From the NCBI RefSeq assembly GCF_009905375.1, contig NC_133650.1, positions 172,688,518-172,752,517 on the forward strand: a stretch of 64,000 bases of DNA, in the 5' to 3' direction. A program made the position numbers and the translations under genes. The DNA is from Apium graveolens. Lineage: Eukaryota; Streptophyta; Magnoliopsida; Apiales; Apiaceae. Each line of letters begins with the position of its first letter. Within the stretch, counting starts at the first letter, position 1. This document shows, one piece after another, positions 10,937-59,671 of this stretch. The notes below the pieces were generated by a model. The model had not been told where the DNA came from and ran no database searches. It saw only the letters and a program-made list of their open reading frames with translations.

Positions 10937-12237
10937 TGTTAGGTCCCAATATGTTTCTAGAAGGGGGGTTGAATACAAACAATACCGTTAAATTGAATTT
11001 AGTGCGGAATAAAAAATTGAAACAAAATTCAAGTTAAATAAAATATTATTAAACTTGAAAGGTGTTACAACAACGGTATCGATTACAAGGGATTAATCTC
11101 AAATTAATTATCACAAATCTAGAATAAATTCGACATGAACTTTTTCTATTTTTGCAATAAAAAGAATCAAATGCTAAAAGCAATTTGAGATTAAGTTCTA
11201 GGGATTTTGATCCGCTAGATAGTTACACAAGAATAAGAGAATGATTTCTAGTGGTTTGGATTTAACTTTAATAACTAAAAATTGATAATCTAGTGAGAGA
11301 TGTAATATTTGTGCGGCTGCTTTTCTTTCTGTGTTCTTGGTTGGTTGAAGATGATAAGATGACTTCTGCTGCTTCTTTCTTTTAAATAAATCAATCAATA
11401 GAATCCACTTGAACTGGCAAGACAATCAGCAAGACAATTGAATGAACTGGCAAGACTATCGGTAAGACAATTGATTGAACTGGCAAGACTATCGGCAAGA
11501 CAATTGATTGAACTAGCATGACAATTTGTTAAACTAGTAGAACTTTCGGTATGACAGTCTATTTGAGCTGGTATGACTTTCGGTATGACAATCTGATTGT
11601 CATACCAGTTCAATTGATTGTCATGTTGAATTAATATTAAATATAAATTCAAAATCAATTCTGAAAATTCCTAATATTAATTCAGAATTAATTAATCAAT
11701 TAATTCAATTAATAAATAAATTAATCTTTGCAGATTTAATTTATTTTCTTAATTAAACTATATGACTTAATTAATTAATAGAGAATTAATACTACTCTTT
11801 AATATCAACCATTCTTTGTGAAAATCTTCTGAAAATCACTGTCAATTATGAATCAATTCCACCACTTCAATGTTGATACTCGATGTACTGTCTGGTTCAT
11901 GAGTGACTAACTTCCGTGACATTTTTTCATGTCTTGACTTTGATACTTGATTTTCTACAGATTAAATCCATGTAATTATCTGATACCCTGACAAGATCTC
12001 TGTCACCTGATTAAATCCACAATCTTGATTTATATCACTGAGGCTTGATCAATTTCTTGAACTTCTTCCAGTGAATTAATTCCTCAAGTCTGTAGATGAA
12101 CCTTAGTTCTGAATCCTTTGACAGATGTTACTTTATGAGATCTCTTTGATGGTAGATCCACTATTTACTTATTACATTCTTATTTGAGTTGAGTTAAATC
12201 CTCGAATAAACAAATAGGCTATGACATATGCCTTACA
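10937..12237 (-). repeat. Element C 3' LTR
   Basis: Runs from TGTTAGGTCCC to CCTTACA and matches 16691-18000 almost throughout, with small indels (for example it lacks a TTGAATTCAGG-like stretch present near 17043). It contains a 33-bp minisatellite at about 11410-11600 built from ACTGGCAAGACTATCGGCAAGACAATTGATTGA-like units; the right LTR has the same array at about 17174-17340. The repeat creates open frames (SSINCLADSLA repeated), which I regard as incidental. Confidence 0.93.
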
Positions 12238-12250
12238 ATCTCCCCCTATT
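12238..12250 (-). other. Element C polypurine tract
   Basis: The minus strand reads ATAGGGGGAGATT directly before the LTR start TGTAAGGC; this is the plus-strand priming site of reverse transcription. Confidence 0.85.
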
Positions 12251-14106
12251 TGTTTGTTAGACAATAATAACAAATACCTAGAGGATAACTCAACTAACAA
12301 ATAAGAAAAAGATGTAAACAGAAATGCAAAGTAAATAGCAGAAAAGTTGTGGATTATATTTAACCTTTTCCATATTCCAAATAGATGTTCCTCTAGACTG
12401 AACATATCTTCAAGTAATTCATCTTCATTTGTACAACCACATTTCCTGTTGAGAAGCGCATATCTCTCTTACTTCTCCCCCTATGAGAATCAACTGCTTA
12501 AAAGAGATCACCTTCGTTTACCACATCTCCCGTACAATAGGATTCGCAGATAAAAACCAGTGGTACTCCCCTTTTGGAAAACAGCTTCTTCCCTTACTAG
12601 GAAATCACCTTGTGTTTACCAGCTCTCCCGTACAATAGGATCCGTAGTTACAAACAACAATGGTGTGGTGTAGTGTACATATGTAGGATCTTTTTCTTCC
12701 TCCCTGCTATTTCTCCCCCTTAGTTGAGGAATCCTCCAAACTATTACTTAAGCTTTTATCTCCCCCTTAGAGAAGGAATGTATGTCGTTGTCTGAAGGAG
12801 TTCTCATATTTCACTTGGTTGGAATAGAAATAACAAGTAGTTTCTCTTTCTTCCTCACTGTGAGTGTGTGATTCTGTTTAGTGTACCTCATATGTGTTTC
12901 ACTCTTCTCTCCACTCGTGTTTACACTCATTCTCACAAGTGTATCACTCTTCTCTCCACTCGTGTTTACACTCATTCTCACAAGTGAATCACTCCTCTCT
13001 CCACTCGTGTTTACACTCATTCTCACAAGTGTATCACTCCTCTCATAACTCCAAAATTCAGCAGTACCTGCAAGGAAAATCACCTTAGCCATCCTTAAGG
13101 AGGTCACAGGTGGTGCAATGGGGGTTCGCAAATCCCCATCCTGGTTAAACTCGTCAGATGAATCTGAGTCATAATCTACAAGTTGCTAGTTTCCCTTTTA
13201 GGGTTCCAGATTTGAATTCTGGGAAGGTAAACAATGATCCAACGAATTTAGCATAAAGACCAAAGTTCCCTTTTAATGTCTGTGAAGACATTTCCTTGTG
13301 ACTCATCAGGTAATATCTGAATCATTGTCAACAAGTTGCCGATCTGCACCTATGTCAGATCCACTATCCGCAGATGCATCCAGGGGATTTAAGCCTGGGG
13401 AGGTAGACACTAACCAATGACATATGGATTTTTGATCAGTATCCTCTCCTAACACCTGTAAAGGCAATTGGTCCATTAACGAGCCTTGAACAATCGAATC
13501 TGACCTTAAAATGGTCGAAACTCTTGTTTCCGTCAATCTCATCCTTTGTGTGTGTAACCTTTCCTTGTGCATCAAAAATTGTTTATGTTTGAGGTGGTGA
13601 CACTACAACGGATACCCTGACCGACATGCAAATTTCAATTGACGCACCCTGTTGAGAGAATGAATCTAGTAACTGTTTTTGTGCCTTTTTCAACCATTAC
13701 ATCTTTTTGAGAAGATGTATGAGGGCTAGCAGTTGTCTCGGTTTAAATACTACTCATCTTTGTAGGAGACAGAGCTGCTGGGTTGACTTCAGAACCTTCC
13801 TTATGTGGTGCACTAAGGCACTATCTCCCTCACGCTCATTCATACTTCAGTTTAGTGGTAATAGAGTGTTGGTTGGTTCTGTTTCTGTGTTTGTCTTTAC
13901 AGTCTAGGATAGAAGTTGTGGGTTTTCAACCTCATGACTGTCAATGAAAGAAAGCCATTAGAGACTGAACCTGTATCACAGAACATATGGCAATATAGAG
14001 ATAAAATGTACTTAAGATCGATAATGAATGAAAAATTATACATTTAATCTTTTGAGAGAAATGATGTACAATAGTGATTTCAAAAGATTTTAAATGAAAT
14101 AAGAAA
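12251..14106 (-). pseudogene. Element C: degenerate 3' region replacing pol
   Basis: About 1.9 kb that should hold integrase, RT and RNase H shows none of their motifs. It has short open stretches on the minus strand at 12811-13131 (containing 15-residue repeats) and 13306-13575, which look like pieces of one larger decayed reading frame. In Sireviruses an extra ORF can follow pol, so this may be its remnant. I do not recognise the product. Confidence 0.45.
12900..13044 (-). repeat. In-frame 45-bp tandem repeat
   Basis: Three full units (12900-12944, 12945-12989, 12990-13034) and a partial fourth. Units differ by one to three bases. The unit is 15 codons, and on the minus strand each encodes a version of SGERSDTLVRMSVNT within the open stretch 12811-13131, so copy-number change keeps the frame. 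Confidence 0.92.
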
Positions 14107-16594
14107 TCATAATGTTGAAAGAAGTTTGAGTTCAATGATAACATTACCAGCTTGCAAAGAGCCATATCCCTCAGTTAAACCTTTGTTGTTATTTCCAAAG
14201 GTAACCAGTGGGCCAGCTTTCTCAACCACATTTGATAGCAGGGCTCTATCTCCGGTCATATGTCTTGACGATCCCTTATCAAGAATCCATACTACCGGTT
14301 CCACCTGCTTACTGCCCTGCACTACAAATGGATTAGACCTTCTTCGGAACCCAAACTTGGTTGGGCCCGGCATACTTGTAGAATTGACCTTTGTCAGGCA
14401 AAACAACATTCTTAACTTTAATGTTGTCAACTTTCTCAATGAATGGACATTTGACCTTGTAAACAGCCTTAACAAATTTCTGTTTAGGCTTAGGCATAAA
14501 TGTCTCCTTTCTAGTCTTAGAAGGACTAGAAGTCTTAGACCTATCATGCTTTCTATTATTCACATGCTGACGAGGAGTAGTCTTATCACTAGTAACATGC
14601 TTACCATTAAAATAAGCATACATCAAATTTAAAGCACAAGACATACAATTAGCAACACCACATGCTTTATGAGAGGGATTAACAACAGGCAAAATATGCA
14701 TGGTAGACATGGCAATTTTGTTATCCAACTCATGTGTGTCTGAGTTAATCTCAGTTGCTTTCACAACTTTGACTAGGACTTTCGACACACTTGGCTTGGA
14801 AATAACCTTCTCATTAGCATGATCTTCAGCACATATTTCTTCTTGAATAATAGAGGAGGTCCCATCAAATGGTTCAGCAATTGATTTTTTATAGAGGGGT
14901 TTATCAACACCCTTAAGCACATGTGGTACTTCCCTACCTTTAGCACATACATGAGGAGGGGAGTTTATGCCTAATTCTCCAATACCAACATTGTAATCAT
15001 AACCTAGTCCAGATGTTTGATTAACAGCTTGCTTACTGTAGAACTCTTTAGCTTTCGAACAAGAATTGAAGTAGGCTTTAACCTTAGTCTCAAGACCGAT
15101 GATCTTGTCTTTGAGAATAGTTTCGAGTTATCTATAATAGTTAACTCTATTCTCTAGAAAAGATACTTGTTCTTTTAACTTGTCTTGATTAATGTGCATA
15201 AGTCTTAATTCATTGACCTCTTTCTCAAGGTCTTTGATCTGTTGACTTAACAGTTCATTATCACGACGAGCACAATCTAAGGAACCTTCTAGATGATAAA
15301 CTAATTCAGCATCAGTAAATTTTACCTCTTTTCTTGACGATGAAGCTTTTCCATCAATAGCCATAAGAGCAAGATTCTCATCTTCTTCATCTTCACTATC
15401 AGTATCATCCCAGCTTCTTCCCTTTTCCAGGTAAGCCCTTTCAGAGTTACTCTTCTTATTTGAATCATAAGAGTTCTTCCTTACTTGCTTTGGCTTCCTG
15501 CATTCTGTGGCAAAGTGTCCCAACTCATTGCAGTTATAGCATCTAATGGTGCTCCGATCAAGCATCCCTGTTTTGTATCCACCACTACTGGTGTTAGAGG
15601 ATGAAGATCTACCTGTCTGGAATCTGTTGTAGTTGGACTTGTACTTGAACTTGGGATTTCTCTTGAATCTGACATTGGAGAATCTCTTGACAATTCGGGC
15701 CATTGACTCATCTTCCAATTGCTCCAGCTCTTCCAAGGAGTAAAAATCATCACTGGATTGATTTGTAGTAGGAGGATCATATTCTGCTACTAATACATTT
15801 TCCTCAGCCTTGGAATACTGTACCATTCTCTCTGACTATTGAGATTGTTGTTGTTGTTGTTGACCTTCAGCTACTAGAGCAGTAGATGTGCTAACCACTC
15901 TATCTTTCCCGTAGACTTCCTTCTGCTGAATCTTCTCCAACTCATAGGTTTTTAACACACCATAGAGTCTATCCAAAGAAATCTCACTCAGATCTCTAGC
16001 TTCTCTTATGGCAGTGATTCTATGTTCAAGATGAGTTGGCAGTGTTAAAAGGAACTTTTTGTTGATCTTCCTGATTGAATAATATTTTCCATTTATGTTC
16101 AGGTTATTGATCAATACATTGTACCTCTCGAACACTTCAGTAATTCCTTCTCCTGGATTGGATTTGAAATGTTCATACTCAGAGGTTAGGATCTCTAACT
16201 TGTTCTCCCTAACTTCCTCTGTGCCTTCATTAATCACCTCAATAGTTTCCCACATGTGTTTGGAATTTTTACAGTTCATCACATGTCTGTTCATCAAGGG
16301 ATCAAGGGAATCAATTAAAATTAATTGAAGGCTGGCATCCAAGGAGGCTTCTTCCTTTTCAGCAGGAGTAAAATCTTCAGGCTCTTTTGCATAGGTTCTA
16401 GCTTTGGTAATCACAACATCATCTACTATAACCTCTGGTTCAATAACCATCGGAATTTTTGGACCCCTCTTTAACAAGTTCAGATATTTGGGATTTGCCA
16501 CTTGTAAAAACAAGAGCATCTTCTTCTTCCACATAATATAATTTTCTTTATCAAATAGTGGAATTTTAACGGTTTCAACTTTTTGTGAAGTCAT
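14107..16594 (-). pseudogene. Element C: Copia gag and start of protease
   Basis: The likely start is the ATG at 16594 (MTSQKVETVKIPLFDKENYI), the usual opening of Copia gag (UBN2/DUF4219-type). The first block runs to 15836 and ends in a Gln-rich stretch. After a stop, the second block 15128-15826 has an acidic region, a CCHC knuckle (CYNCNELGHFATEC, about 15499-15541), an Asp/Glu-rich segment and a coiled coil (QQIKDLEKEVNELRLMHINQ). A stop at 15128 and further frame changes lead into 14333-14920 and then 14107-14547. There the protease site reads WILDKGSSRHMTGD, where the family has Asp-Ser-Gly, so the catalytic Ser is Lys. Homology ends at 14107. Long coiled-coil gags are known in Sireviruses. 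Confidence 0.88.
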
Positions 16595-16676
16595 TATGAA
16601 TTTTTGAATAAATAAAAATTCAAGGAGTTGAAAATTCACAAAAGTCTAGGATCTTGATTTGTTCGTTAATCAGAAG

Positions 16677-16688
16677 GCTCTGATACCA
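16677..16688 (-). other. Element C primer binding site (initiator Met tRNA)
   Basis: TGGTATCAGAGC on the minus strand, two bases inside the 5' LTR end at 16691. Confidence 0.92.
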
Positions 16689-16690
16689 AT

Positions 16691-18000
16691 TGTTAGGTCC
16701 CAATATGTTTGTAGAAGGGGGATTGAATACAAACAATACCGTTTAATCGAATTTAGTGCGGAATTAAAAATTGAAACAAAATTCAAGTTAAATAAAATAT
16801 TATTAAACTTGAAAGGTGTTACAACAATGGTATCGATTACAAGGGATTAATCTCAAATTAATTATCACAAATCTAGAATAAATTCGACATGAACTTTTTC
16901 TATTTTTGCAACAAAAAGAATCAAATGCTAAAAGCAATTTGAGATTAAGTTCTAGGGATTTCGATCCGCTAGATAGTTACACAAGAACAAGAGAATGATT
17001 TCTAGTGGTTTGGATTTAACTTTAATAACTAGAAATTGATAATCTTGAATTCAGGAGTGAGAGATGTAATATTTGTGCGGCTACTTTTCTTTCTATGTTC
17101 TTGGTTGGTTGAAGATGATAAGATGACTTCTGCTGCTTCTTTCTTTTAAATAAATCAATCAACAGAATCCACTTGAACTGGCAAGACAATCGGCCAGACA
17201 ATTGAATGAACTGGCAAGACTATCGGCAAGACAATTGATTGAACTGGCAAGACTATCGACAAGACAATTAATTGAACTAGCATGGCAATCTATTGAACTA
17301 GTAGAAATTTTGGTACGACAATCTATTTGAGCTGGTATGACTTTCGGTATGACAATCTGATTGTCATACCAGTTCAATTGATTGTCATGCTGAATTAATA
17401 TTGAATATAAATTCAAAATCAATTCTGAAAATTCCTAATATTAATTCAGAATTAATTAATCAATTAATTCAATTAATAAATAAATTAATCTTTGCAGATT
17501 TAATTTATTTTCTTAATTAAACTATATGACTTAATTAATTAATAGAGAATTAATACTACTCTTTAACAACAACCATTCTTCTGAAAAACTTCTGAAAATC
17601 ACTGCCAATTATGAATCAATTCCACCACTTATATGTTGACACTCGATGTACTGTCTGGTTCATGAGTGACTAACTTCCATGACGTTTCTTCATGTCTTGA
17701 CTTTGATACTTGATTTTCTACAGATTAAATCCCTGTAATTATCTGATACCCTGACAATATCTCTGTCACCTGATTAAATCCACAATCTTGATTTATATCA
17801 CTGAGGCTTGATTAATTTCTTGAACTTCTTCCAGTGAAGTAATTCCTCAAGTCTGTAGATGAACCTTGTTTCTGAATCCTTTGACAGATGTTACTTTGTG
17901 AGATCTTTTTGACGGTAGATCCACTATTTACTTGTTATATTCTTATTTGAGTTGAGTTAAATCCTCGAATAAACCAATAGGCTATGACATATGCCTTACA
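16691..18000 (-). repeat. Element C 5' LTR
   Basis: Partner of 10937-12237, with TGTTAGG...TTACA ends. The few percent divergence from its partner shows the insertion is not recent. Confidence 0.93.
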
Positions 18001-18263: not shown

Positions 18264-18659
18264 CTAAGCCTCCTTCTCGGACTCCTCCTCGGGTTCCTCC
18301 TCAGACTCCTCCTCACGGGTCCTTACGACATCAGGGGTAGTGTCCTCACATAACATCTTGACCACGCTCTCAAGCTCATCCACTATCGTCTGCACAGTAA
18401 TCTGACTGTTCGGGTCACGATGCACAGGCATCTCCTCCAATCTTGATGTGGCCACCTTGATCAATGATTCGAGCCTCGAAATGGTTCTCTCCTTAGGTCC
18501 GCTACCCATCTCTTGCTTACTTGTATAGATCTCTTCAAGACGTTCCATAAGCCTGACATACTTTCCTTGGAGAAAGTCATGATGCATCCTTAAGTCAGCA
18601 TAGACGGAGAAAGCAATTGTGTCGTTCGGCGGAATCGAAGATGATGAGTGCGCACATTG
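18264..18659 (-). CDS. Element B accessory ORF, proposed exon 2
   Basis: Open on the minus strand from CAATGTGCGC at 18659 to a stop at 18264, 131 codons. The first Met is only at codon 25 (18587), yet the preceding 24 codons are conserved with element D (AHSSSS then IAFSVYADLR against IAFSVYAELR), so the real protein does not begin at that Met. Directly upstream is CTTGTCAG, a good 3' splice acceptor. The product has a helical first half (LQGKYVRLMERLEEIY; SRLESLIKVATSRLEEM) and an acidic tail (EEESEEEPEEESEKEA). It lies between the primer site and gag. No known domain is recognised. With the exon at 19033-19101 it would give a protein of about 154 residues with no internal stop. Confidence 0.65.
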   Translation of the reverse strand, partial: QCAHSSSSIPPNDTIAFSVYADLRMHHDFLQGKYVRLMERLEEIYTSKQEMGSGPKERTISRLESLIKVATSRLEEMPVHRDPNSQITVQTIVDELESVVKMLCEDTTPDVVRTREEESEEEPEEESEKEA

Positions 18660-18800
18660 CTGACAAGTAATATATATATATATATATACAAAAATTAGAT
18701 ACGATTTACTCGAATATCGAGCATTAGTACTCCCGATATTATATTATATACTCATATTTCGTATAGTCCTAATTGGGCTGTCCAGAGACTCTAAACCTAG

Positions 18801-18812
18801 GCTCTGATACCA
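18801..18812 (-). other. Element B primer binding site (initiator Met tRNA)
   Basis: TGGTATCAGAGC on the minus strand, four bases from the LTR end at 18817. It lies inside the proposed intron 18660-19032. Confidence 0.92.
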
Positions 18813-19032
18813 AACCTGTCATACCCCAAACCAAACACACACACACACACTAAATAAATGTGAACCATAATTATATTACAAATTTATAAGTCCAAAAGAT
18901 AATAATAATACGATTACAGACGTGACCAAAATAATAGAAATCCTGAGATCTTTACAGGTTCGGAGTTTGGAACAGCCCTTCTAACTAATACCACAATTAC
19001 AAGCTGGCGGATATTGCCTATATATATTCTAC

Positions 19033-19101
19033 CTGCGCCCTCAAATGGTCTTCACCCTGCCTACCGGTTGTCTTACGGGCGGTCTGCTTGGTACGAACCA
19101 T
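19033..19101 (-). CDS. Histone-H3-tail-like leader exon in LTR B
   Basis: The ATG complement lies at 19099-19101. The first 13 residues are MVRTKQTARKTTG. Plant and animal histone H3 starts MARTKQTARKSTG, so 11 of 13 match, including the R2, K4, Q5, T6, R8 and K9 positions that chromatin enzymes and readers recognise. Similarity to H3 stops there; the exon continues RQGEDHLRAQ. Read without splicing, the frame ends at a TAG at 19018. At the end of Gln-23 the sequence is CAG|GTAGAA, a close match to a plant 5' splice site, and the acceptor at 18660 resumes in the same phase. ATG is 37 bases after the LTR hairpin. Expression and splicing are inferred, not shown. Confidence 0.6.
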
Positions 19102-19138
19102 GATTGCTAGCTATAGAACAGGGTTAAATACAAGAAAA

Positions 19139-19154
19139 TGAGCTAATACGCTCA
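19139..19154 (-). promoter_or_regulatory. Conserved LTR hairpin TGAGC/GCTCA (B)
   Basis: TGAGC-6 bases-GCTCA, preceded on the sense strand by CTTGC and followed within 40 bases by the leader-exon ATG. A TATA-like stretch (TTGTATAATAG) lies about 20 bases upstream, so the hairpin may be near the transcription start. Confidence 0.65.
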
Positions 19155-22100
19155 GCAAGTACTAACAGTTCTATTATACAAGGCATTATCTCACTATCAT
19201 GGGTTCATGAATCAAGGGGTTATAGATGATTGTACAAATGACAATAAGAAACATGAAGTTAAAATGTAAAGACATGGTAAAATCATAGTAATCGAAACAT
19301 GACATATGGAATCATGGCATTGTGGTAACATGTTATAATATAAAGGCATGGTAGAATCATAATGATCGAAACATGGCATATGGTATCATGGCATCGGGCA
19401 ATATGTTATAAAAATCAAATCATCAAAATCATTTTAGGACGCTACGGATTACAGCCGGTGATCAGCCGTGAAGTAATCCCGAACCGCGCTGGGTTCTCAA
19501 ATATAATGGGATCCCTAGGCTACATGTGAGCCCATCAATACGAGTAAAAAGGACCTGCGTCTAGTCCAATCCACAAAGTCAAGAAAACATTTTATTTTTT
19601 TTAGGATTTATAAAATGGATGCCGGGAAAGATTTGGTATTATTTTAATGGAATTGTAACAAGAGAATTCAAGTTCACTAAGGAGGTTCGTTTTAGGGAAT
19701 TTGGTAGAGAGTTTATTATTCACGGTCTATTGGATAAAGAATGTTTTGAAGGTAAGGTACTAACAAGGTTAAGGGTTATTAAAGGTAGTATTTGAATTGG
19801 TTAATGACTTGGTAATTATCACAACGAAGAATTCACGAAAAATATGTATACTTGCAACAATTATAAGAATAAGGAGGTAAGTAACTTGCCAAAAATTATA
19901 AGCATAAGAAAGTAGTAACTTGCCTTCCAATAGTTCTAAAATTATTCGATCTTGACGGCACGAGTCTTCCCCTTCACTTCGGATCCTACACATTATATTA
20001 ACCTCATTACTGTTCAGCCTTTAACACCTTAAAAGCCTATAAACTCCTAGACTCACTATTACCTTTATCATACTACTATTACACGAGAACTTATAATTAT
20101 AAGAATACACATAACTTAATCATATACAATTCAGGTAATCCATATAGTCACATAATCACATAATGGCATGGCATATACTACTAGTTATTTATACTATAAT
20201 ATCGCCTAAATACCTAAGCACATAACCAAGTAACACATAAGAACTTAAACCCAAATATGATGTGCAACACTCAGACACTTCACTTCTAAGTCCCAAATAC
20301 AATGAACACCACTAAGGTTTTCCTATGACCACTCGAAGGGTGCTCTCGGGTTTCTTGGTCGAAATGGGGTGTCTCCATCTTGGGCCTTCACTTCAAACCA
20401 CTTCCTACAGGTTGTTAAGACTCTAAAATAACTTCTAGAGTTGGTGAGACTCAAAGGCCTCACTCCTATAGGCTTACAGAAATTAATACTCACACTAAGG
20501 TTTCTGCTAGCACCAGATTGCACGTCTTTTGCTCCTTGGCCGAAATCTCAACTTCCACATGGGGAATTATAACAAAAACAATTCTAATGGATTCTTAAGA
20601 CCTAAACCTAACTCTCAGACTTGGTTTCAGGCCAATGCCTCACCTAGGATTCTCTAGACCTCTGCTCAAAATTGACACTATCCAGCCTTCCTAGAAAACA
20701 CTCTGCTCTATTTTTACTCACATAAAACTCACTTTTCTCACTCAATTCTTAATTTTAATGGTTTGTTAAACTTCCTAATGATGTATTACACTAATTTAAG
20801 CCAAGCACCCGTGAAGGCCTAGCCCATGGCATGGTTAAAGTCGACCAAAGTTTAAGCTTACGTAATTCTGCCATGTTCTGAGTTACTCTCGGAAATGTGT
20901 TTGTGCACCTACCTAAATGCAAGGTTTTCAACGAATCCAAGCCACAAGGCTCAATTAAAACTCAAGTCCTAACTCCAGTAAACTCAGGCCCAGCAAGGCC
21001 TTACCAAAACTCACCTAAAACAACCTATACTTATGGTGACAAATTCTGCTACAAAGTGCTTAGTGTACCTCCTTCCACCTTAACTCCCATATCAACACCA
21101 AAACCAACATGTAAGCCCACAAATCTATCCTACATTGTACACAACCCTATTAACTATCATTATATGGAAAAATTAGAGCATAAACCTAGCCATAAAAGCC
21201 ATTTACTGAGGCAAAAACAGAGGGCATAGCTAAGCAGATTTTACATATGAAATTTTAAGCAAATATTCGAACTAAAAACACATGGTATCAACTTGATGGC
21301 TACAAAATTTGATCATAACTCATCAAGGCACATAGCATACTAGCATTTTAGAGCATAAACTGTGGCACGCATTGCATACAAACTCATATTTAGATCACAT
21401 AGCACATTTATCTGAAATACTTCTCATTCTACAACATGCAAGTATAACTTCAACTTTTTAACGTAAAAATCATGGCATGCAAGGATGGAAACTTGGTAAA
21501 ATACATATTATAAGATCATAAGTTCTTTTAAAATTCACATGCAAAGTCTCTTTCTTCTTGAAAACAAACAAAACTATCGCATAAATAATAAAAATCCATT
21601 CAGCTCCTTGGGAGTCATTGCCGAATGCTTGAGGCCAAGATTATGGCTTGAAAATGGAAGCAAAACACTTCATCAAGACCATCTCTTGCTCAAGTTTTCT
21701 GAGACACATTAGGTTCAACTCTAGATTCAGAAGAATCAAAGTTAAACCCTTGGCTTTATCTACATGCAACTAAGAAATTAACTTTGAATGAAGATATAGA
21801 ACCAAGTGAAATTGTCCTTTACTTAGAGGAGTTGAAAGATGCAAGAAGATGAAGAAATGAAGAAGAAAAAAAATGTGAGGGGAGGTGGTGTAGGCGCGGC
21901 CGAGAGGGAGGGGTAGGGAGAGGATAGAGTGGAGTGAGGTGTTGGTGAAGAAAAATGAGGTGAGTGGAGTGTATAAATTTGTTTTTGTCTCACCAAAATG
22001 GTAGTGGAGTTTGAACTAACTATTTTATCCTTCATCCACTAATAGCCAACTTTTGCATGCAAGGTTTTATTGGTCTTTTGCTTGGTCAAATGGAGTTAGT

Positions 22101-30261: not shown

Positions 30262-30324
30262 ATGAGCTCAAACATACGAATCGACATCACAAGTCTTACG
30301 CGTTGTCTGTTTGAATCTAACCAT
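30262..30324 (-). pseudogene. H3-tail-like leader exon, copy in D 3' LTR
   Basis: Starts MVRFKQTTRKTCD. Positions R2, K4, Q5, T6, R8 and K9 of histone H3 are kept, T3 is Phe. The frame is interrupted by TGA after SYV, where the 5' LTR copy has CGA, a C-to-T change. The donor-like CAT|GTAGTTAGT is preserved. Confidence 0.5.
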
Positions 30325-30373: not shown

Positions 30374-33300
30374 ACAAGCGCTATAATATACATAAACAAG
30401 AATAAAAAAATAACAATGGAAATGAAAGATTCAACAATATAGTAACAAGAGATAAACTTTCAGGGTGATGGCATATTTTTTTGTAATAAAACCATTCAAA
30501 ACCATTTCCTTATCAAAAACCATTTTATGACGCTACGGATTAGATCCGGTGATCAGCCGCGAAGTAATCCCAAACCTCGCTGGGTTCTAGAACATTAGTG
30601 GGATCCCTATGAAAATTTTAAGCCTACAAATTAAGAGCAGAAAGGACTTGCGTCTCAGTCCAGATCCACTATCTAAAGAAAATATTTGTCCCCCTTTGGA
30701 ACTGGAAATCCAAATTTTAACTTATTATTTTTAAAAAAAACGGATGCCAAGTGACGGTTAATTTCTTAAACAGTGAACATCTCTATCAAGGGTTCTAGAT
30801 CAACTTTGAAGCATAGGGAATAGGTCCACTAAATTTCAAGGCCATGATCAACTAGACTATACTTTATCAAGGGAATTGCAAGGTTTATATTCACAAGGAA
30901 TTTGACAATGAGATTTAGCAGGGTTATCGGATAGTATGAAGGAACTAAGTCAAACTAGGTTCAAAGTAATGGTTCTAGATAAGACATAGGTATTGAAATA
31001 TAAAAAAGGTGAGCATCAGTTCAAAGTATAACAGGGTATCATGTTTTCGGAGTAAGAATAGGGTTATCAAGCAATCATGAACGACTTTTAAGGGATAGCT
31101 TACTTTTAGGTATCAAGATAAGATTACTGAGTATAATTTGCACAGGGTTCCACATCACAATTACTTGGTATATTAGCATGGTACGACTTTTGAATTACTT
31201 GCATAGAAATCTCCAAGCAAAGCTAAACTACTTGCAATAGATACTTGAGGGTTCATGGCATTTGCATATAATACGAAAGATAGATTTGAAACCACTTGGA
31301 TCATATATATCAAGGTAAATTTGAATACTCGCATCATAGATAAAAGCTGGGCTAACACTATCTTGCAGTATAAACAAAAAGGTAGGTTGAAATACTTGCC
31401 TTGAGAAAAGCTTGACTTGACTGGCAGGTGGGAGCAACTGGAGCTTCACTCAACTTTAATGGCAAGTTTACCCTCATCTCGAGAGCCTACATAAAATAAT
31501 AATATCCTCATTATAATATATACTCACTAACTCAACCTAATTATAAACCGAAATTACGCACATTGGCACTTAGGCCTATATACACATAAACGCTTATAAT
31601 TACCTTATAAGCATAATAGTTCACATAACCACTCATGTTCACATAGCACATTTAAGTACATAATAAAATATCCATACACATTATATTGCATCACTAGGCT
31701 TGGATGATCTCACTCCACTTACTCAAATCACTTAGTTATACTAAACTAGCCAAAACTCTTAATATCATCCTTATAAATTGAAGTGCCTTTTCTAAACCGT
31801 CAAGTTATTATGGACCCCGACTTAGGCCTTACACTCTACTGACCTCATACTATCTTAAAACTGTGGTGGTCAACCTAGGCCTCACTCGTAAGTGCCCTAA
31901 AACTAAAGGTTAAGTGATTTGGCTCATTATAGTGATTTCAGGGTGACACCAATGGGTTTATTAGTACAATTAAACCCTTACACTTCAAGTTTACCTCAAA
32001 TTCTACACTAGAATCTTCTGACCATAAGGAAACCCTCAAAATTGGTTTGGCTCAAGGGCCTAGCTTGGGCCTACTTGGGCCTAAGCTTAAAGTCCAATGT
32101 TCCCCCTGTTTTTTGGACAAAAAAGTGTCCTGTTTTGCACTAACTTATGACACATGATTCTAACTAAATTCCTATGAACTATGGCTGGAAAAACTCCTCT
32201 GACACTCCCTCTAACTAGGGCTAACCAAGGCCTAGTTAGGGCCTACCCATGACATGGTCAAAACTCCTCATTTCTAAGTTGAAACAAAACTGTCCCCTGC
32301 TGAACGGATTCTAAATTTTGGTGTGTGCACCTCACTAAATGGTTGGGCTTCTCTAATTTGTGACTTCTAGACTTAATTATACCCCAATTCTTAACTCCCC
32401 GTGGTTTGGGCTTAACAATGCCTAAGAAATGCCCATTCAAAATAAACACAAATCTCACATGCAAATCTGGAAAAAAAATTCAGGATTCTATCCTAGCCTT
32501 TTCACCTTAACTCCCACTTTAAAATCACGAATTAAATCTCAACCAAGGCAAATTTACTACTATAAGACTCTAAGCTAAAGCCTCAACCAATAATGGAGAT
32601 CATCCATGCCCTATAGTACCATCATGCAAAATAAAACTTAACATGCAACTCAAGATGATCACTAAATCAAGTTCGACTAAACAAGAGGGTTACTAGCTCA
32701 TAAATTCGACTTAAAATACTTAAATACTTCAAGAGATCATGCACACTACCTTTTAACAACTAAGATCAAGCTTAATATCAAGGAAACAATTCGTTTTACG
32801 CACATATAAGGTCGAATTTAACACAAACTAAGCATGCACGTACATTTTCGAAAAGAAGAGCATATATAACATGATTATACTTGAAAATAATGCCCTATCT
32901 CTAACATGCAAAGTAGAATATGACTTTACAACTAAAGATCAGTAGCATGCAAATATTTTAAAAGAGTTTTATTCATGGAATAACTTAGTTTATGCACATA
33001 AAAAGTATATCTCATAGAGAACTCTTTAATCCACATGAAATTAAGAGTTTCTCTTTGGAGATCACATAAAATCAAGACATGCAAGCATTAAACTTCATCT
33101 CATGAGGATGGAACTTCTTGTAAAGTGTGTATTATATGAATGGGTAATGGAATTACACTATAATGGCAAGGATTTGATGAAGAAAAGTTTAAGGGAATGG
33201 GGAAGGGGCTTCGGCCAAATGAAGAAAAAGAGAGGGGGGAGAGAAAATTTGAGAGTGAAAATGTTGAGCTTGAGTGGAGTGTGGTTTTGGGTTAACTTTT

Positions 33301-33911: not shown

Positions 33912-35319
33912 TTAGGAGAATAGGTGAGGATACCGGCTACGCATATCCGACTCTAGTTCCCACGTTGACTCCTCAACCTTGGGATTTCTCCAAAGTACTC
34001 TTACCAACTTGACCAAATTATTTCTAAGACTCTTCTCCTGCCAGTCGAGTATTTTGACAGGTTGCTCCACAAATGACAGGTCTGCCTGAATCTCTATAGA
34101 TTCATATTCTATCACATGGTTGGTATCAGGATTATACTTCTTAAGTAATGACACATGAAACACCTTATGCACATGCTGATACTAAGGCAGCAAAGCTAAT
34201 TCATAGGCCACCTTCCCTACTTGACTCAAAACTTCAAAATGACCAATATATCTAGGTGTTAACTTCCCTTTCTTTCCAAATCGAGACAATCCTTTCCTCG
34301 GTGATACTTTCAGCAATACGGCTTCACCTACTTGGAATCTGATATCCTTACGTGTCGGGTCTGCATACTTTATTTGCATATCTTGAGCAGCAAGTAATCT
34401 CTTTTAAATCAATTTGACTGTCTCATGCATTTGTTGTACCAATTCAGGGCCTAAAATCTTTCTTTCTCCCACTTCATCCCAGCTAGTTGGTGATCTGCAT
34501 TTCCGTCCGTATAAAGCTTCGTATGGTGGCATGCCAATACTGGTGTGATAGCTGTTGTTATAGGAGAATTCTACCAATGGCAGGTGGTCGTCCCAACTTC
34601 CCGCAAAATCAATCGCACAGCTATGCAACATGTCTTCAATTGTTTGAATTATCCTCTCGCTTTAACCATCAGTCTGCGGATGATACGCCGTACTCATATT
34701 CAACTTGGTGCCAAGACTTTCTTGAAATTGCTTCCAGAATGGTGCCAAGACTTTCTTGAAATTGCTTCCAGAATCTCGAGTTAAATCATGGATCTCTGTT
34801 CGAAACTATTGATACAGGTACGCCATGTCATAATAAGATTTCACGCACATACAGGTGGACCAATCCATCCAATGAAGACCTCTCATTGATCGGAAGAAAA
34901 TGTGCTAACTTCGTAAGGAGATCAGCTATAACCCATATAGCGTCATGTCCGGATTTCGTTCATGGTAATCCTACTATAAAGTCCATGACAATGTTTTCCC
35001 ACTTCCATTCTGGAATCTTTAAAGGCTGAATTAATCCACTTGGTCTTTGATGTTTTGACTTCACTTTCTGACAAGTATAGCACCTCGCAACCCATTCTGC
35101 TACTTATCACTTCATATTTGGACACCAAAAGTTCTGCTTCAAGTCCTGGTACATCTTGGTTCTTCCCGGATGGATTGAAAATCTAGAATTATGAGCTTCT
35201 TATAATATCTCATTCTTCAATTCAGTCACATGAGGAATCCAAATTCTTGAGGAAAACCTTAATATACCTTGTTCATCCTTTTGAGTACAAATCTCCTCTC
35301 CGGTCAGTTGATTATTCTC
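33912..35319 (-). pseudogene. Element D: integrase and chromodomain, broken
   Basis: Remnants in order: linker before the zinc domain (about 35220-35319), HHCC domain and core N-part (34943-35200), core with FNSRFWKQFQ near 34760, C-part (34404-34631, VEFSYNNSYHTSIGMPPYEA), the GPY-type segment (34182-34379, GEAVLLKVSPRKGLSRFGKK), and a chromodomain-like tail (33912-34172, LRNNLVKLVRVLWRNPKVEE). The usual SDRDP reads SNRDP, so a catalytic Asp appears lost. A 34-bp exact tandem duplication at 34706-34773 shifts the frame. The chromodomain is the group that lacks the first aromatic cage residues, as in Tekay/Del. Confidence 0.87.
34706..34773. repeat. 34-bp exact tandem duplication within D integrase
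   Basis: TGGTGCCAAGACTTTCTTGA plus 14 more bases occurs at 34706-34739 and again at 34740-34773. The length is not a multiple of three, so the copy breaks the frame. Confidence 0.92.
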
Positions 35320-38911: not shown

Positions 38912-39190
38912 TCATGAAGCGTCTTCATAACACACTGGATAGTATACTGGCTGGTACGGTCTCCCATCAAGCTTAGTGTTAACGTATTGAACCAAGGTCT
39001 CAAGTCTCGCAGTCATCTGCTCCATAGGCTTTCCTTCATAGTTTCGGCTATCCGGATACACGTTCTTCAATCGCTCTAACACTCGATCATACTTGCCCTG
39101 AAGCCTGTCGAACTCACGCCTCAACTCAGCATACACGGAGAAAGCAATTATGTCAGACGGTTCAGAAGATGACGAAGAATGCGCCCTTTG
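38912..39190 (-). CDS. Element D accessory ORF, proposed exon 2
   Basis: Open on the minus strand from CAAAGGGCGC at 39190 to the stop at 38912, 92 codons with no early ATG. Conserved with B: AHSSSS near the start, IAFSVYAELRREFDRLQGKY against IAFSVYADLRMHHDFLQGKY, then ERL and a second helix (TARLETLVQYVNTKLDG). It ends sooner than B and lacks the acidic tail, perhaps by a nonsense change. Upstream is TTTTTTGGAAG, a weaker acceptor than in B. Phase matches the exon at 39530-39592. Confidence 0.6.
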   Translation of the reverse strand, partial: QRAHSSSSSEPSDIIAFSVYAELRREFDRLQGKYDRVLERLKNVYPDSRNYEGKPMEQMTARLETLVQYVNTKLDGRPYQPVYYPVCYEDAS

Positions 39191-39529: not shown

Positions 39530-39592
39530 ATGAGCTCGAACATACGAATTGGCATCACAAGTCTTATGCATGGTCTGCTTGAATCTAACCAT
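39530..39592 (-). CDS. H3-tail-like leader exon in D 5' LTR
   Basis: The 21-codon exon starts MVRFKQTMHKTCD. R2, K4, Q5, T6 and K9 of histone H3 are kept, while T3, A7 and R8 differ. It reaches CAT|GTAGTTAGT, donor-like, in phase 0 with the accessory exon at 39190. Without splicing the frame continues to 39473. The ATG could be internal, since the frame is open upstream to 39667 within the LTR. Fewer matches than B, so on its own it would not be convincing. Confidence 0.5.
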
Positions 39593-39641: not shown

Positions 39642-40566
39642 ACAAGCGCTATAATATACATAAACAAGAATAAAAGAATAACAATGAAAATGAAAGATTC
39701 AACAATATAGTAACAAGAGATAAACTTTCAGGGTGATGGCATCTTTTATTGTAATAAAACCATTCAAAACCATTTCCTAATCAAAAACCATTTTATGACA
39801 CTACGGATTATAACCGGTGATCAGTCGCGAAGTAATCCCGAACCTCGCTGGGTTCTAGAACATTAATGGGATCCCTAGGCAACTTTTAAGCCTACAAATT
39901 AAGAGCGAAAAGGACTTGCGTCTCAGTCCAGATCCACCATCTAAAGAAAATATTTGTCCCCCTTTGGAACTGGAAATCCAAATTTTAACTTTTTATTTTA
40001 AAAAAAAACTGATGCTAAGTGATGGTTAATTTCTTAAATGGTGAACATCTTTATCAAGGATTCTAGATCAACTTTGAAGCATGGGGAATAGGTCCACTAA
40101 ATTTCAAGGCCATGATCAACTAGACTATACTTTATCAAGAGAATTGCAAGGTTTCTATTCACAAGGAATTTGATAATCAGATTTAGCAGGGTTATCGGAT
40201 AGTATGAAGGAACTAAGTCAAACTAGGTTCAAGGTAATGGTTCCAGATAAGAAATAGGTATTGAAATATAAAGAAGGTGAGCATCAGTTTAAAGTATAAC
40301 AGGGTATCATGTTTTAGGAGTAAGAATAGGGTTATCAAGAAATCATGAATGACTTTTAAGGGATAGCTGACTTTTAGGTATCAAGATAAGGTTACTGAGT
40401 ATAACTGGCACAGGGTTCTACATCACAATTACTTGGTATATTAGCATGGCACGCCTTTTGAATTACTTGCATAGAAATCTCCAAGTAAAGCTAAACTACT
40501 TGCAATAGATACTTGAGGGTTCATGGAATTTGCATATAATACGAAAGATAGATTTGAAACCACTTG

Positions 40567-52640: not shown

Positions 52641-53160
52641 CTATTGAGACCAGGGTGATTACCAGTGGGGAATTCGTCCATCTACTAGTAGAAAAGGTTA
52701 CTTATTGGTATCTTTGCCTGATCAGCGAGATACCTGGTTTATGCCAAAAAAAAATTCCTTTCCCAAAATTTATTGGATGTTTCAAACTCTGTTCATACTT
52801 TACATGACAGAGGTTTTCAGGAAATGTATAAAGAAGATGTATATGTGGATATATATATATATCAGAACTTAATGAAGTATATCATAACTTCATTTCCTTT
52901 AATAATATTTCAAAGGTTTAATCTATTTAAATCTTGTCTGGTAGTCTCATCTATGTGATGAACTGGTAAAAGCTCATTATACTTTGAACAGTGGTAGTTC
53001 AAGTAGCTTTATAAATGATATAACTGTAGTGAAGTATCTGGTAACTTCATCCCTTGCTTTTACTTATATCTAGTAAGTAATTATCTTACACATGATAAAA
53101 GATTCTAGTAAGTATCCATTTAGATACTTATATTATTATTATCACTATATATTATCTTGC

Positions 53161-53174
53161 GAGCTGTAAGGCTC
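53161..53174 (+). promoter_or_regulatory. LTR hairpin (E), degenerate form
   Basis: CTTGC-GAGC-TGTAAG-GCTC-AC: one base shorter than CTTGCTGAGC in other LTRs, leaving a 4-bp stem. A TATA-like CTATATATTATC lies just upstream at about 53145. Confidence 0.55.
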
Positions 53175-53217
53175 ACTCTTGCTTTATTTCTTCATCACAC
53201 AACAACAGTTAGGAAAG

Positions 53218-53304
53218 ATGGCCAGACTCCAGCAGACCCAGTGCAAGCGTGTGGGAAGCGTCCCGCGTCTTCCCGATGATGTTGTAGCTGCTATAGCTGC
53301 AGAG
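53218..53304 (+). CDS. H3-tail-like leader exon in LTR E
   Basis: ATG at 53218; begins MARLQQTQCKRVG. A1, R2, Q5, T6 and K9 of histone H3 are kept; T3, K4, A7 and R8 differ. Twenty-nine codons later GCAGAG|GTAGAT is donor-like in phase 0. Without splicing the frame stops at 53340 (40 residues). The acceptor at 53800 (TGTGTAG|GCG) continues in the same phase into the acidic accessory ORF. It is preceded by ACAACAACAGTTAGGAAAG. Taken alone the H3 likeness would be weak; the shared position and phase with B give it weight. Confidence 0.5.
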
Positions 53305-53616
53305 GTAGATCTATTGGTAGATCAGGCATTCTATTTTTGAGAATCAAATTATGTATAATTATAACTTGTGGCAGATAATGGCAATTAATTGTAAATTTAT
53401 CAAGTAATCATTTTGGGTTGTAATAACTTTTAAATTGTGGATTCAAAGACTTGTACTTATTTCAATTTCATCTCTGAGACTATAACGGGTTGTGGTGTGT
53501 GTTAGTGTGGGGTCATAGCATAAGGTTATTATTATTAATTAAGTGAAGTGATATTGTGGAAAGAAAGACCGTGACGACCCGGATCCCCGACCCCGGATCT
53601 AGGGGTGTTACAGAAA

Positions 53617-53800: not shown

Positions 53801-54533
53801 GCGCCTGAGATAGAGGACCCTGAGATGTTCGAGCGTGAGCATGATGAGGCACTGCTAGATGTTGAGGATCAGGAGGAGCCTGAGATGGAGGAGGATGAGG
53901 AGGACCCCTCAGAGGAGTTAGAGACGGAGGTCATTGCTATTTCAGATGAGGAGGACCCCTCGGAGGAGTCAGAGACAGAGGTTATTGCTATTCCAGATGA
54001 GGAGGACCCGGATGAGGTCCCAGTAGCTGAGGAGCGTGTTGGACCTATGGTAGTGTATGCTGGTACCCCATTACCCACACTTCCGGTGGTCAGCTACCCC
54101 TCCACCACTATCTTGGATTCCCGATGATGACAGCTCAGAGACCCATACTTCCGAGCCTAGGCAGACCGAGGAGGCACCCTCAGCGGCTCCGGATTCACCA
54201 CCTCTTGACCCTACCCACAGGCAGTCTTCGTTAGCTCATGGATATGTTCAGGATGTTCTGAGGACCCGAGTGGCTGTTGCCGAGGGCCGACTGGATGAGG
54301 CCAGGAGGGAGTTGGATGCAGAGAGGGCGGGTAGGCGTACCCGAGCTTATGAGACTAGGGCTTCTATACCCCGATCCTTGAGGAGGGAGCTTACGGGGAT
54401 AGAGCTCACATCCCGAGCGAGGCTCAGATCGCTCCAGGGGGACATGCATGGTAGGATCTCCAGGCGGCAAGCCGACTATATCTTCCGTCGTGCGATGGAA
54501 AGGGTATGGGAGCTGACCAGCTCCGGTGTATGA
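53801..54533 (+). pseudogene. Element E accessory ORF, proposed exon 2, frameshifted
   Basis: From 53801 (APEIEDPEMFERE; first ATG 53825) a strongly acidic domain with two near-identical units of about 18 residues (EEDPSEELETEVIAISDEED, then a second with SEESETEVIAIPD). A one-base loss at about 54100 shifts to the frame ending at 54533, which is proline-rich, then helical and Arg-rich (AEGRLDEARRELDAERAGRR; RRAMERVWELTSSGV). It is longer than the B and D versions, with the acidic part first rather than last. No known domain. It sits between the primer site and gag. Confidence 0.6.
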
Positions 54534-58204: not shown

Positions 58205-59671
58205 TTTTGAGATCTCAATGCAGCCCGAGTTATTGGAAAAATATCAGATTGTGCCAGGAGAAAATAATGAATGAAGGCAGAGAGTCAATGACTGGAGAGG
58301 AGATCCATACTGAGAAAGATGATAAAGGGATAATGAGGTACTCCTACCGGATTTGGGTTCCGAATGTTCAAGAGCTTAAAGATGAGATATTGGATGAAAG
58401 CCATAGTTCAAGGTATTCCATTCACCCGGGAAGTACCAAGATGTATAGGGATTTGAAGGAATATTACTGGTGGCCCAACATGAAGAGGGACGTAGCAGAA
58501 TGGGTAAGCAAATGTTTGACTTGCCAAAGGGTAAAGGCAGAGCACCAGAGACCCAGTGGACTCTTACGACCCCTGGAGATTCCCGAATGGAAATGTGAAC
58601 AGATAACGATGGATTTTGTTGTAGGATTGCAAGGACGAAAGCCAATCACGACGCCATTTGGGTAATTATAGACTGACTGACAAAGTCAGCTCATTTCATT
58701 CCTATCAATGAGAGATACACAGTCGATAGACTGGTGGACATTTACCTTAAGGAAATAGTAACGCGACATGGAGTCCCAGCGTCCATTGTCTCAGACCGAG
58801 ACCCCAGGTTCAACTCCAGATTTTGGAGGAGCTTTCAGGAATGTGCGGGGACCAAGTTAAATATGAGTAACGCGTACCATCCCCAGACGGATGGGCAGAG
58901 TGAAAGGACCATCCAGACACTAGAGGATATGTTGAGAGTCTGTGCAATAGACTTTAAAGGGAGCTGGGATGATCACTTGCCGTTGATCGAGTTTTCTTAT
59001 AACAATAGCTTTCATGCTAGCATCGGAATGCCGCCTTAAGAGGCCCTGTACGGAAGAAGGTGCCGATCTCCCTTATACTGGGATGAAGTAGGAGAGCGGA
59101 AGATGCTCGGACCCGAAGTGGTCCAAAGGACCAAAGATATAGTGGATCTTATCAGAGGGCGACTTGTAGCAGCCCAAGACAGACAGAAAAAATATGCAGA
59201 CCTAGCCCGAAAGGACAAGGAATATGAAGTAGGGGACTTAGTACTGCTAAAGGTATCCCCTTGGAAGGGATTAATGAGGTTCGGAAGGAAAGGAAAACTA
59301 AGCCCAAGATACATTGGACCTTTGAGATATTAAGACGGATTGGAAAGTTAGCTTACGAGCTAGCCTTACCCCCTAACTTGCAACAAGTTCATAATGTGTT
59401 CCATGTGTCAATGCTAAGGAAGTATCATCGGGATGCCAGACATATAGTGGAGTACGAGCAGGTGGATATGCAGCCAGATCTAACTTACGTGGAGAAGCCA
59501 GTAAGGATTATAGATAAGAAGGAGCAGGTGCTTCGGAACAAAGTGATCAAGCTAGTCAGAGTACTATGGCAGAATCATAATGTGGAAGAATCAACTTGGG
59601 AACTAGAGAGCACAATGCTAGAAAAGTACCCCCATTTGTTTCTGTTTGATTCCGGGACGGAATCCTTTTAA
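58205..59671 (+). pseudogene. Element E: integrase with chromodomain, broken
   Basis: HHCC domain (IHPGSTKMYRDLKEYYWWPN ... CLTCQRV) and core Asp (MDFVVGL) in 58207-58665; [11 protein letters not shown] and [20 protein letters not shown] in 58734-59039; GPY-type segment in 59103-59333; chromodomain-like tail in 59261-59671 (VLRNKVIKLVRVLWQNHNVE; ESTWELESTMLEKYPHLF). Breaks: frameshifts near 58255, 58650 and 59318, a TGA at about 58676 (probably CGA) and a TAA at 59037. All three catalytic acidic residues of the core are present. The tail type suits Tekay/Del, whose chromodomains are thought to guide insertion to H3K9-methylated chromatin. Confidence 0.9.

Follow-up and report, generated by a model that had tools for sequence, protein, structure and literature searches.

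Methylation of H3K9 is the main route by which plant LTR retrotransposons are silenced, and the response of these elements at the protein level is poorly known. Several non-histone proteins of viruses and hosts carry short linear segments that mimic the H3 tail, among them the ARKT of G9a, the ARSK of influenza NS1 and the SNAG domain of SNAIL, each copying a few residues that are mostly internal or C-terminal, and we know of no closer copy of the H3 N-terminus outside histones than the one described below. Additional ORFs at the 5' side of Tekay elements were reportedly described by Steinbauerova in 2011. Such 5' additional ORFs (5'aORFs), including that of sunflower Tekay group 2, are presented as extra sense ORFs lying between the 5' LTR and gag, with no known domain and with both helical and disordered parts (PMC11728184; reviewed in PMC7264820). 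Splicing that yields a message separate from the full-length RNA is in turn described for the env-like product of Bagy2, for Ogre and EVADE, and for Cer1 of C. elegans (PMC7264820, PMC12786077), and the ARKS peptide of ADNP is described as a histone-tail mimic on a host protein (PMC3022755).

The window analysed here (the whole stretch of 64,000 nucleotides of celery DNA) holds LTR elements that we call A, B and C. As in Tekay elements with a 5'aORF, a sense ORF is present between the 5' LTR and gag, the likeness being one of position and description. In contrast to the sunflower Tekay ORF, described as 402 residues long (PMC11728184), the predicted celery protein has about 150 residues, and its start lies in an LTR exon with an H3-like tail. 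Unlike the spliced messages of Bagy2, Ogre, EVADE and Cer1, it has a coding exon 1, and its predicted donor sits inside the LTR, ahead of the primer-binding site. The viral and host mimics share with it a short linear H3 segment on a non-histone protein, but the celery element reproduces 10 of the first 11 H3 residues where it is of the Ser type, and 9 of these 11 in the copy of the window, and does so at the N-terminus and in a transposable element. A literature search covering few subscription papers or preprints returned, in the text available, no report of an H3-like tail in such elements or of an LTR-encoded spliced first exon in Tekay elements, and the words 'histone', 'spliced' and 'intron' do not occur in the main text of PMC11728184. 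Tekay 5'aORFs and histone mimics are themselves already known.

The Tekay assignment derives from the integrase ends of A and C, that of element B not having been located: the motif EEXTWEXE, given for the Tekay integrase chromodomain in PMC3350952, reads EESTWELE in A (33912-34181, minus strand) and in C (59228-59671, plus strand). Agreement with the second motif, (K/R)-X-(L/T)-R-X-(k/r), was partial (KSLRNN in A, QVLRNK in C), and Pfam Chromo scored 22.2 bits on element C, below its cut-off of 25.1. A search of viral contigs by RT confirmed no relatives. We also observed a further element at 10937-18000 (minus strand), which has a copia-like gag and a separate pair of LTRs that are 95% identical; it appears to lie in the internal region of element B.

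The H3-like start and its spread across LTR families

The initial annotation had claimed that an ORF in LTR B starts like histone H3. The ORF is read from 19101 to 19018, on the window's minus strand, the element there having its sense strand in this orientation, and alignment of MVRTKQTARKTTGRQGEDHLRAQVEYI* with H3, MARTKQTARKSTG, bore the claim out, as 11 of 13 residues agree and the likeness stops there, with the sharp end at residue 13 that had been noted. The plus-strand reading of 19018-19101 gave nothing H3-like and was discarded. In 100 random 64-kb sequences that keep the base-to-base steps of the window, the highest-scoring Met start reached 5/13 in 72 and 6/13 in 28, and the GTN (Val) form of the back-translated pattern had no match in prokaryotic contigs (257 billion bases) or in viral contigs. 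A chance origin, already judged unlikely in the annotation, was therefore rejected, and the identity of the mini-ORF to this segment of the H3 tail exceeds chance. The ORF differs from H3 in that Val replaces Ala1, in that the likeness stops after codon 13-14 and in that the encoded protein has no histone fold after the tail. Without its Met, the tail of Ser-type copies reads VRTKQTARKST, one residue away from H3 1-11; the window's copy has Thr instead of Ser and is two residues away.

The homologous starts in the window and the motif upstream of them are as follows.

19018..19101, minus strand: LTR B mini-ORF as first reported, MVRTKQTARKTTGRQGEDHLRAQVEYI*
19139..19159, minus strand: inverted-repeat motif CTTGCTGAGC-GTATTA-GCTCA preceding exon 1; LTRs A and C have counterparts
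39530..39592, minus strand: LTR A, 5' copy, exon 1 homologue, MVRFKQTMHKTCDANSYVRAH (start MVRFKQTMHKTCD)
30262..30324, minus strand: LTR A, 3' copy, exon 1 homologue, decayed, MVRFKQTTRKTCDVDSYV*AH (start MVRFKQTTRKTCD)
53218..53304, plus strand: LTR C exon 1 homologue, MARLQQTQCKRVGSVPRLPDDVVAAIAAE (start MARLQQTQCKRVG), followed by the donor GTAGAT

The inverted repeat, GAGC..GCTC, precedes the H3-like start in the four LTR copies listed (two of A, one each of B and C). Two long segments could be aligned between the LTRs of element A, with identities of 94.7% and 92.3%. Separately, about 170 bp of LTR B (19422-19592) are about 80-82% identical to LTR A (39780-39955 and 30512-30687), and the flanking LTR sequence does not align; the block is possibly a conserved U3 or regulatory one.

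Copies of the LTR were then collected from the host genome. The LTR-B stretch gave at least 40 scored copies from 1290 candidates, and a recognisable MVRTKQTARK start was found in all 28 copies compared out of the 40 reported (the window's own included), one of them with an 8-nt gap inside it and several carrying the Ser that H3 has at codon 11. The copies thus hold the same start and not the random residues that would have spoken against a mimic. The pattern M[A/V]RTKQTARK, which also lets in Ser at codon 3 (1 of the 92 GTN matches listed), had 221 matches in the host genome (3.33 Gb) and its reversed control none. Among the 100 matches listed, codon 2 was GTN (Val, the LTR type) in 92 and GCN (Ala, the H3 type) in 8, and the 92 fell into three synonymous-codon groups, 71 B1-like, 11 B2 and 10 B3, the B2 matches having Arg as AGA and Thr at codon 4 as ACC, ACA, ACG or ACT. 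Family A, whose copies were collected by DNA similarity alone, had Phe at codon 4 in every one of the 30 copies compared (out of 40 reported, and counting both LTRs of the window), with Lys5 in 29, Gln6 in 26 and Lys10 in 30, mostly reading KQT[A/T]RKT, and family C read MAR[L/P]QQTQ[R/C]KRVG in the 12 copies fetched of 40 reported. The H3-like tail is hence family-wide in these Ty3 LTRs and not a one-off. Common to the families is [A/V]-R-x-x-Q-T-x-R-K, that is R2, Q5, T6, R8 and K9 in H3 numbering; since T3 is missing from A, and T3, K4, A7 and S10 from C, the full mimic is not kept everywhere.

A predicted spliced accessory protein

The ORF had been reported as a sense-strand ORF in the LTR. 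Its surroundings most likely make it the first exon of a spliced accessory gene, on the evidence of a conserved donor, a second exon lacking an ATG and deposited protein models that join the two; it is probably not free-standing. The predicted parts are these.

19033..19101, minus strand: predicted exon 1, 23 codons, phase 0, H3-like tail and linker, MVRTKQTARKTTGRQGEDHLRAQ
19031..19032, minus strand: predicted splice donor, CAG/GTAGAA; AGGTA found here in 30/44 in-frame copies
19032-18660, minus strand: predicted intron of B, 373 nt, spanning the primer-binding site
18802..18812, minus strand: primer-binding-site-like TGGTATCAGAG, directly past the LTR end, inside the predicted intron
18660..18661, minus strand: predicted splice acceptor, TATATTACTTGTCAG/CAA; AG kept in 11/16 copies examined
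18267..18659, minus strand: accessory protein, predicted exon 2 (131 codons), its C-end acidic and its TAG stop at 18264-18266
38915..39190, minus strand: exon 2 homologue in element A, QRAHSSSSSEPSDIIAFSVYAELRREFDRLQGKYDR...
53801..54127, plus strand: element C, strongly acidic frame predicted as exon 2, opening at TTAATGTGTAG/GCG

The mini-ORFs of B1, B2, B3 and family A share a C-end, ...RAQ/V, encoded by CAG/GTA, a phase-0 donor, which is GAG/GTA in C and CAT/GTA in the A copies of the window. Beyond the LTR, between the primer-binding site and gag, a second frame opens at an AG past an AT/T-rich stretch, with the conserved sequence Q-[C/R/H]-A-H-S-S-S...FSVYA[D/E]LR...LQGKY; it starts about 140-150 nt past the primer-binding site, and gag-like frames follow at about 890-1000 nt (L030, L040, L045, L057). 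The start of exon 2 was located in 16 of 68 long loci, and in none of the 16 does an in-frame ATG occur in the stretch that reaches from the acceptor back to the first stop on its upstream side. In L047, the only B2 copy read through to exon 2, ATGs occur at exon-2 codons 2-3, and exon 2 could therefore start there. Donor, acceptor and phase are conserved, the donor being intact in 30/44 copies and the acceptor AG lost in 5 of the 16. The CAGs at the splice sites are often CAA or TAG in copies of exons 1 and 2 (e.g. L005, L030, L045, L050, L057), the pattern expected of post-insertion decay at methylated CHG sites. A TATTTAA sequence (19124-19130, minus strand) ends 22 nt upstream of the exon 1 ATG; taken as a TATA box, it would place the transcript start at about the ATG, which is awkward for a coding exon 1.

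A protein search with exon 2 found seven deposited models running through the predicted junction, which was read from the protein sequences of the gene models alone. Three are from Heracleum sosnowskyi, P0010 (a cluster of 13), P0016 and P0026, and read MVRTKQTARKSSNGV[A/T][E/G]QYVIAQ/Q[R/C]AHSSSS. The other four are from celery (P0011, P0022, P0028 and P0030), with the A-type tail MV[R/I]FKQT[A/S]RKTCDA[D/N]AYVRAQ/Q[R/S]AHSS, and in them the junction sits inside longer models, chimeras whose upstream part is unrelated. In P0008, also from celery, MVSTKQTARK is joined to exon 2 at a later point, P0020 (Heracleum), P0015 and P0027 (both celery) join exon 2 to something else, and the contig-derived relatives that reach the junction (P0003, P0012, P0023, P0024) are unspliced. 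The first eleven residues of P0010, MVRTKQTARKS, are identical to those of celery copies such as L051, and the identity of exon-2 sequences to P0010 is about 60% for P0003 as well as for P0002. Among 6, 22 and 24 protein matches, no relative from outside Apiaceae was named, the named ones being from celery or Heracleum. For P0010, P0012 and P0003 no Pfam hit reached the cut-off and no histone match appeared at E <= 1, and the exon 2 protein model had no PDB fold match at E <= 0.001. AlphaFold predicted helices at residues 40-69, 78-99, 106-128 and 139-153 of P0010 (mean pLDDT 67.9), and gave residues 1-31 a pLDDT below 50, which would leave the H3-like segment free and flexible at the N-terminus, like the tail of a histone. 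Most likely, then, judging from these models, the LTR encodes a disordered tail resembling H3 1-11 on a Tekay accessory protein.

In element C, the frame that opens, at a comparable acceptor, is a different and strongly acidic one; this frame and its acceptor were present in the window and in 3 of 14 further stretches fetched; of the other 11, 5 have a different sequence in common and 6 look unrelated. Nearly identical C-type LTRs (window 52940-53615; L161-L174) thus precede two or more distinct internal sequences, a sign that a non-autonomous partner family may use the same LTR. On the plus strand of the C leader, the acidic frame (53801-54127) overlaps a frame of 158 aa without Pfam hit (54057-54533), and the two look like a different kind of 5'aORF.

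Protein-level constraint and origin of the tail

Loci found through the tail pattern were unusable for dN/dS, because the pattern itself imposes the amino acids, and were replaced by loci found through the downstream exon 2. Sixty were chosen, blind to the tail, from 150 scored exon-2 matches: ranks 1-42 minus the window's own copy and one small-contig duplicate row, plus 20 lower-ranking loci hand-picked as matches that begin near the query start. Exon 1 aligned about 410 nt upstream in 51 of them and did not in 9; 2 of these 51 alignments were spurious and belonged to the 7 that were discarded as broken, which left 44 usable copies. All ten residues of MVRTKQTARK were intact in 17 of the 60 loci.

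Between B1 (37 copies) and B3 (7 copies), pN/pS over codons 2-10 was 0.096, far from the value near 1 that the initial annotation had named as counting against a mimic; together with the family-wide start, this leaves its proposal of an H3 tail mimic standing. Even pN was lower between the two families (0.063) than within B1 (0.092). Within families, the ratio was 1.68 in B1 (666 pairs), the value of unconstrained decay after insertion, 0.73 in A and 0.23 in B3 (21 pairs only), and since B3 is also low and A is 0.73, the within-family contrast rests mainly on B1. Over codons 13-23 the ratio between B1 and B3 was 0.41. Taking as fixed those differences whose majority bases reach at least 80% in each family, codons 2-12 had 5 synonymous and no replacement differences fixed between B1 and B3, against 11 and 24 polymorphic (Fisher p = 0.0066), and codons 13-23 had 4 and 5 fixed against 12 and 34 polymorphic (p = 0.42), both p values treating sites as independent with few fixed differences. 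Comparisons of A with B1 (pN/pS 0.52, p = 0.16) and with B3 (0.27, p = 0.22) were not significant, because A has a fixed T-to-F change. The exclusively synonymous fixed changes and the low pN/pS indicate that, between B1 and B3, the tail residues have been under selection at the protein level.

The nucleotide alignment with host H3 genes gave a mixed answer on origin. Over codons 1-12 (36 nt), one B1 copy (L051) was 0.92 identical to the host H3 gene L039, 0.75 to the H3 gene L056 and 0.81-0.86 to other LTR families, as a captured fragment would be; B2 and B3 copies were farther, at 0.72-0.78 to the two H3 genes. Over codons 13-23 (33 nt), identity was 0.24-0.33 with these genes and 0.48-0.64 among LTR families, and the similarity to H3 ends at codon 13-14. 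Of the captured H3 fragment and the selected mimic first proposed, the B1-B3 constraint bears out the selection. Val at codon 2, common to the A- and B-type families seen, speaks for one origin followed by selection, and what fits best on these alignments is one early gain, by capture or convergence, in a common LTR ancestor in which Val2 became fixed; B1 may later have been refreshed by an H3 gene.

Possible roles of the tail and other readings

We propose, with a probability of roughly 60%, that the anatomy described above, an LTR exon 1 of a spliced accessory protein, is combined with H3 mimicry under selection. A Tekay-type LTR would hold the first coding exon, starting M-V-R-T-K-Q-T-A-R-K-S/T and ending at a phase-0 donor within the LTR; splicing would take out the end of the LTR together with the primer-binding site; and a helical body with an acidic end would come from exon 2, which is located between LTR and gag. 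As the predicted intron holds the primer-binding site, the spliced RNA would serve as message only and not as template for reverse transcription. The product would be a helical protein carrying a flexible H3-like N-terminal tail. Removal of the Met, which is usual before Val, would expose VRTKQTARKST in Ser-type copies, and this tail could engage host factors that modify or read K4/K9 of H3, such as the silencing H3K9 methylation machinery, which would then be drawn off the chromatin of the element, or else element complexes would be tethered to heterochromatin. We consider such a role as histone-tail decoy or adaptor the most likely one, though at somewhat less than even odds. In a peptide study (PMC7181051), VRTKQTARK(me3)ST is listed as displacing an H3K9me3 peptide from the ADD domain of human ATRX with an IC50 of 4.3 uM, against 7.6 uM for the natural sequence, so that at least one reader, of human origin, tolerates Val1. 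Across the families it is the residues around K9 that are kept, which makes enzymes or readers of the H3K9 type likelier targets than readers of K4; K4 (H3 numbering) is lost in C.

Other readings of the same features were weighed. The tail, whether methylated or unmethylated, might be a ligand of the element's own group II integrase chromodomain, holding the integrase off chromatin or in the particle until delivery. The integrases of A and C do end in a chromodomain-like sequence with the Tekay motif EESTWELE, Lys10 of the ORF (H3 K9) is kept in A, B and C, and the interacting factor of plant group II chromodomains had not been found according to PMC3350952; these chromodomains, however, are described as lacking the aromatic cage residues (PMC12786077), and K4 and T3 are kept too in the B families, so that we consider this reading improbable. 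We also find it unlikely that the ORF is free-standing, giving an unspliced peptide of 25-40 residues that acts as a mimic by itself or regulates the translation of gag: the frame does as a rule close within the LTR in the copies listed, and the contig-derived relatives are unspliced, but the last residues common to the families are those of the donor consensus, with C-ends that differ beyond it, exon 2 generally lacks a separate start, and the deposited protein models have their junction here.

The constraint data weigh against two further readings. That a fragment of a host H3 gene was passively captured and is carried in the LTR as a neutral passenger would agree with the near identity of L051 to L039, but the differences fixed between B1 and B3 in codons 2-12 are synonymous only, Heracleum has the same start though the rest has diverged, and the similarity ends at codon 13-14 while Val2 is common to the A- and B-type families seen; we regard it as very improbable. 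Equally hard to sustain is a constraint on the nucleic acid (RNA packaging, a splicing enhancer or a promoter) that reads as an H3 tail by coincidence. The region does contain a donor, adjoins a TATA-like box and has a conserved inverted repeat upstream, yet third codon positions vary between families with the amino acids kept, Arg3 being CGT, CGC or AGA (a codon list that comes partly from a pattern imposing the amino acids, unlike pN/pS).

For annotation, matches to the LTR exon 1 resemble fragments of H3 genes, and LTRs can conceal protein-coding exons. No function has been established for the 5' extra ORFs catalogued in Tekay elements, and a conserved H3-like tail on a predicted spliced accessory protein offers a direct, testable hypothesis on what their products contact. 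It is conceivable, though we would not put it at even odds, that an abundant chromovirus lineage presents a near-perfect H3 1-11 tail that host H3K4/K9 factors treat as H3, thereby steering or subverting heterochromatin. If true, this would be a retrotransposon-encoded histone mimic in conflict, or in collaboration, with plant silencing, and an unexpected way for a transposon to imitate host chromatin.
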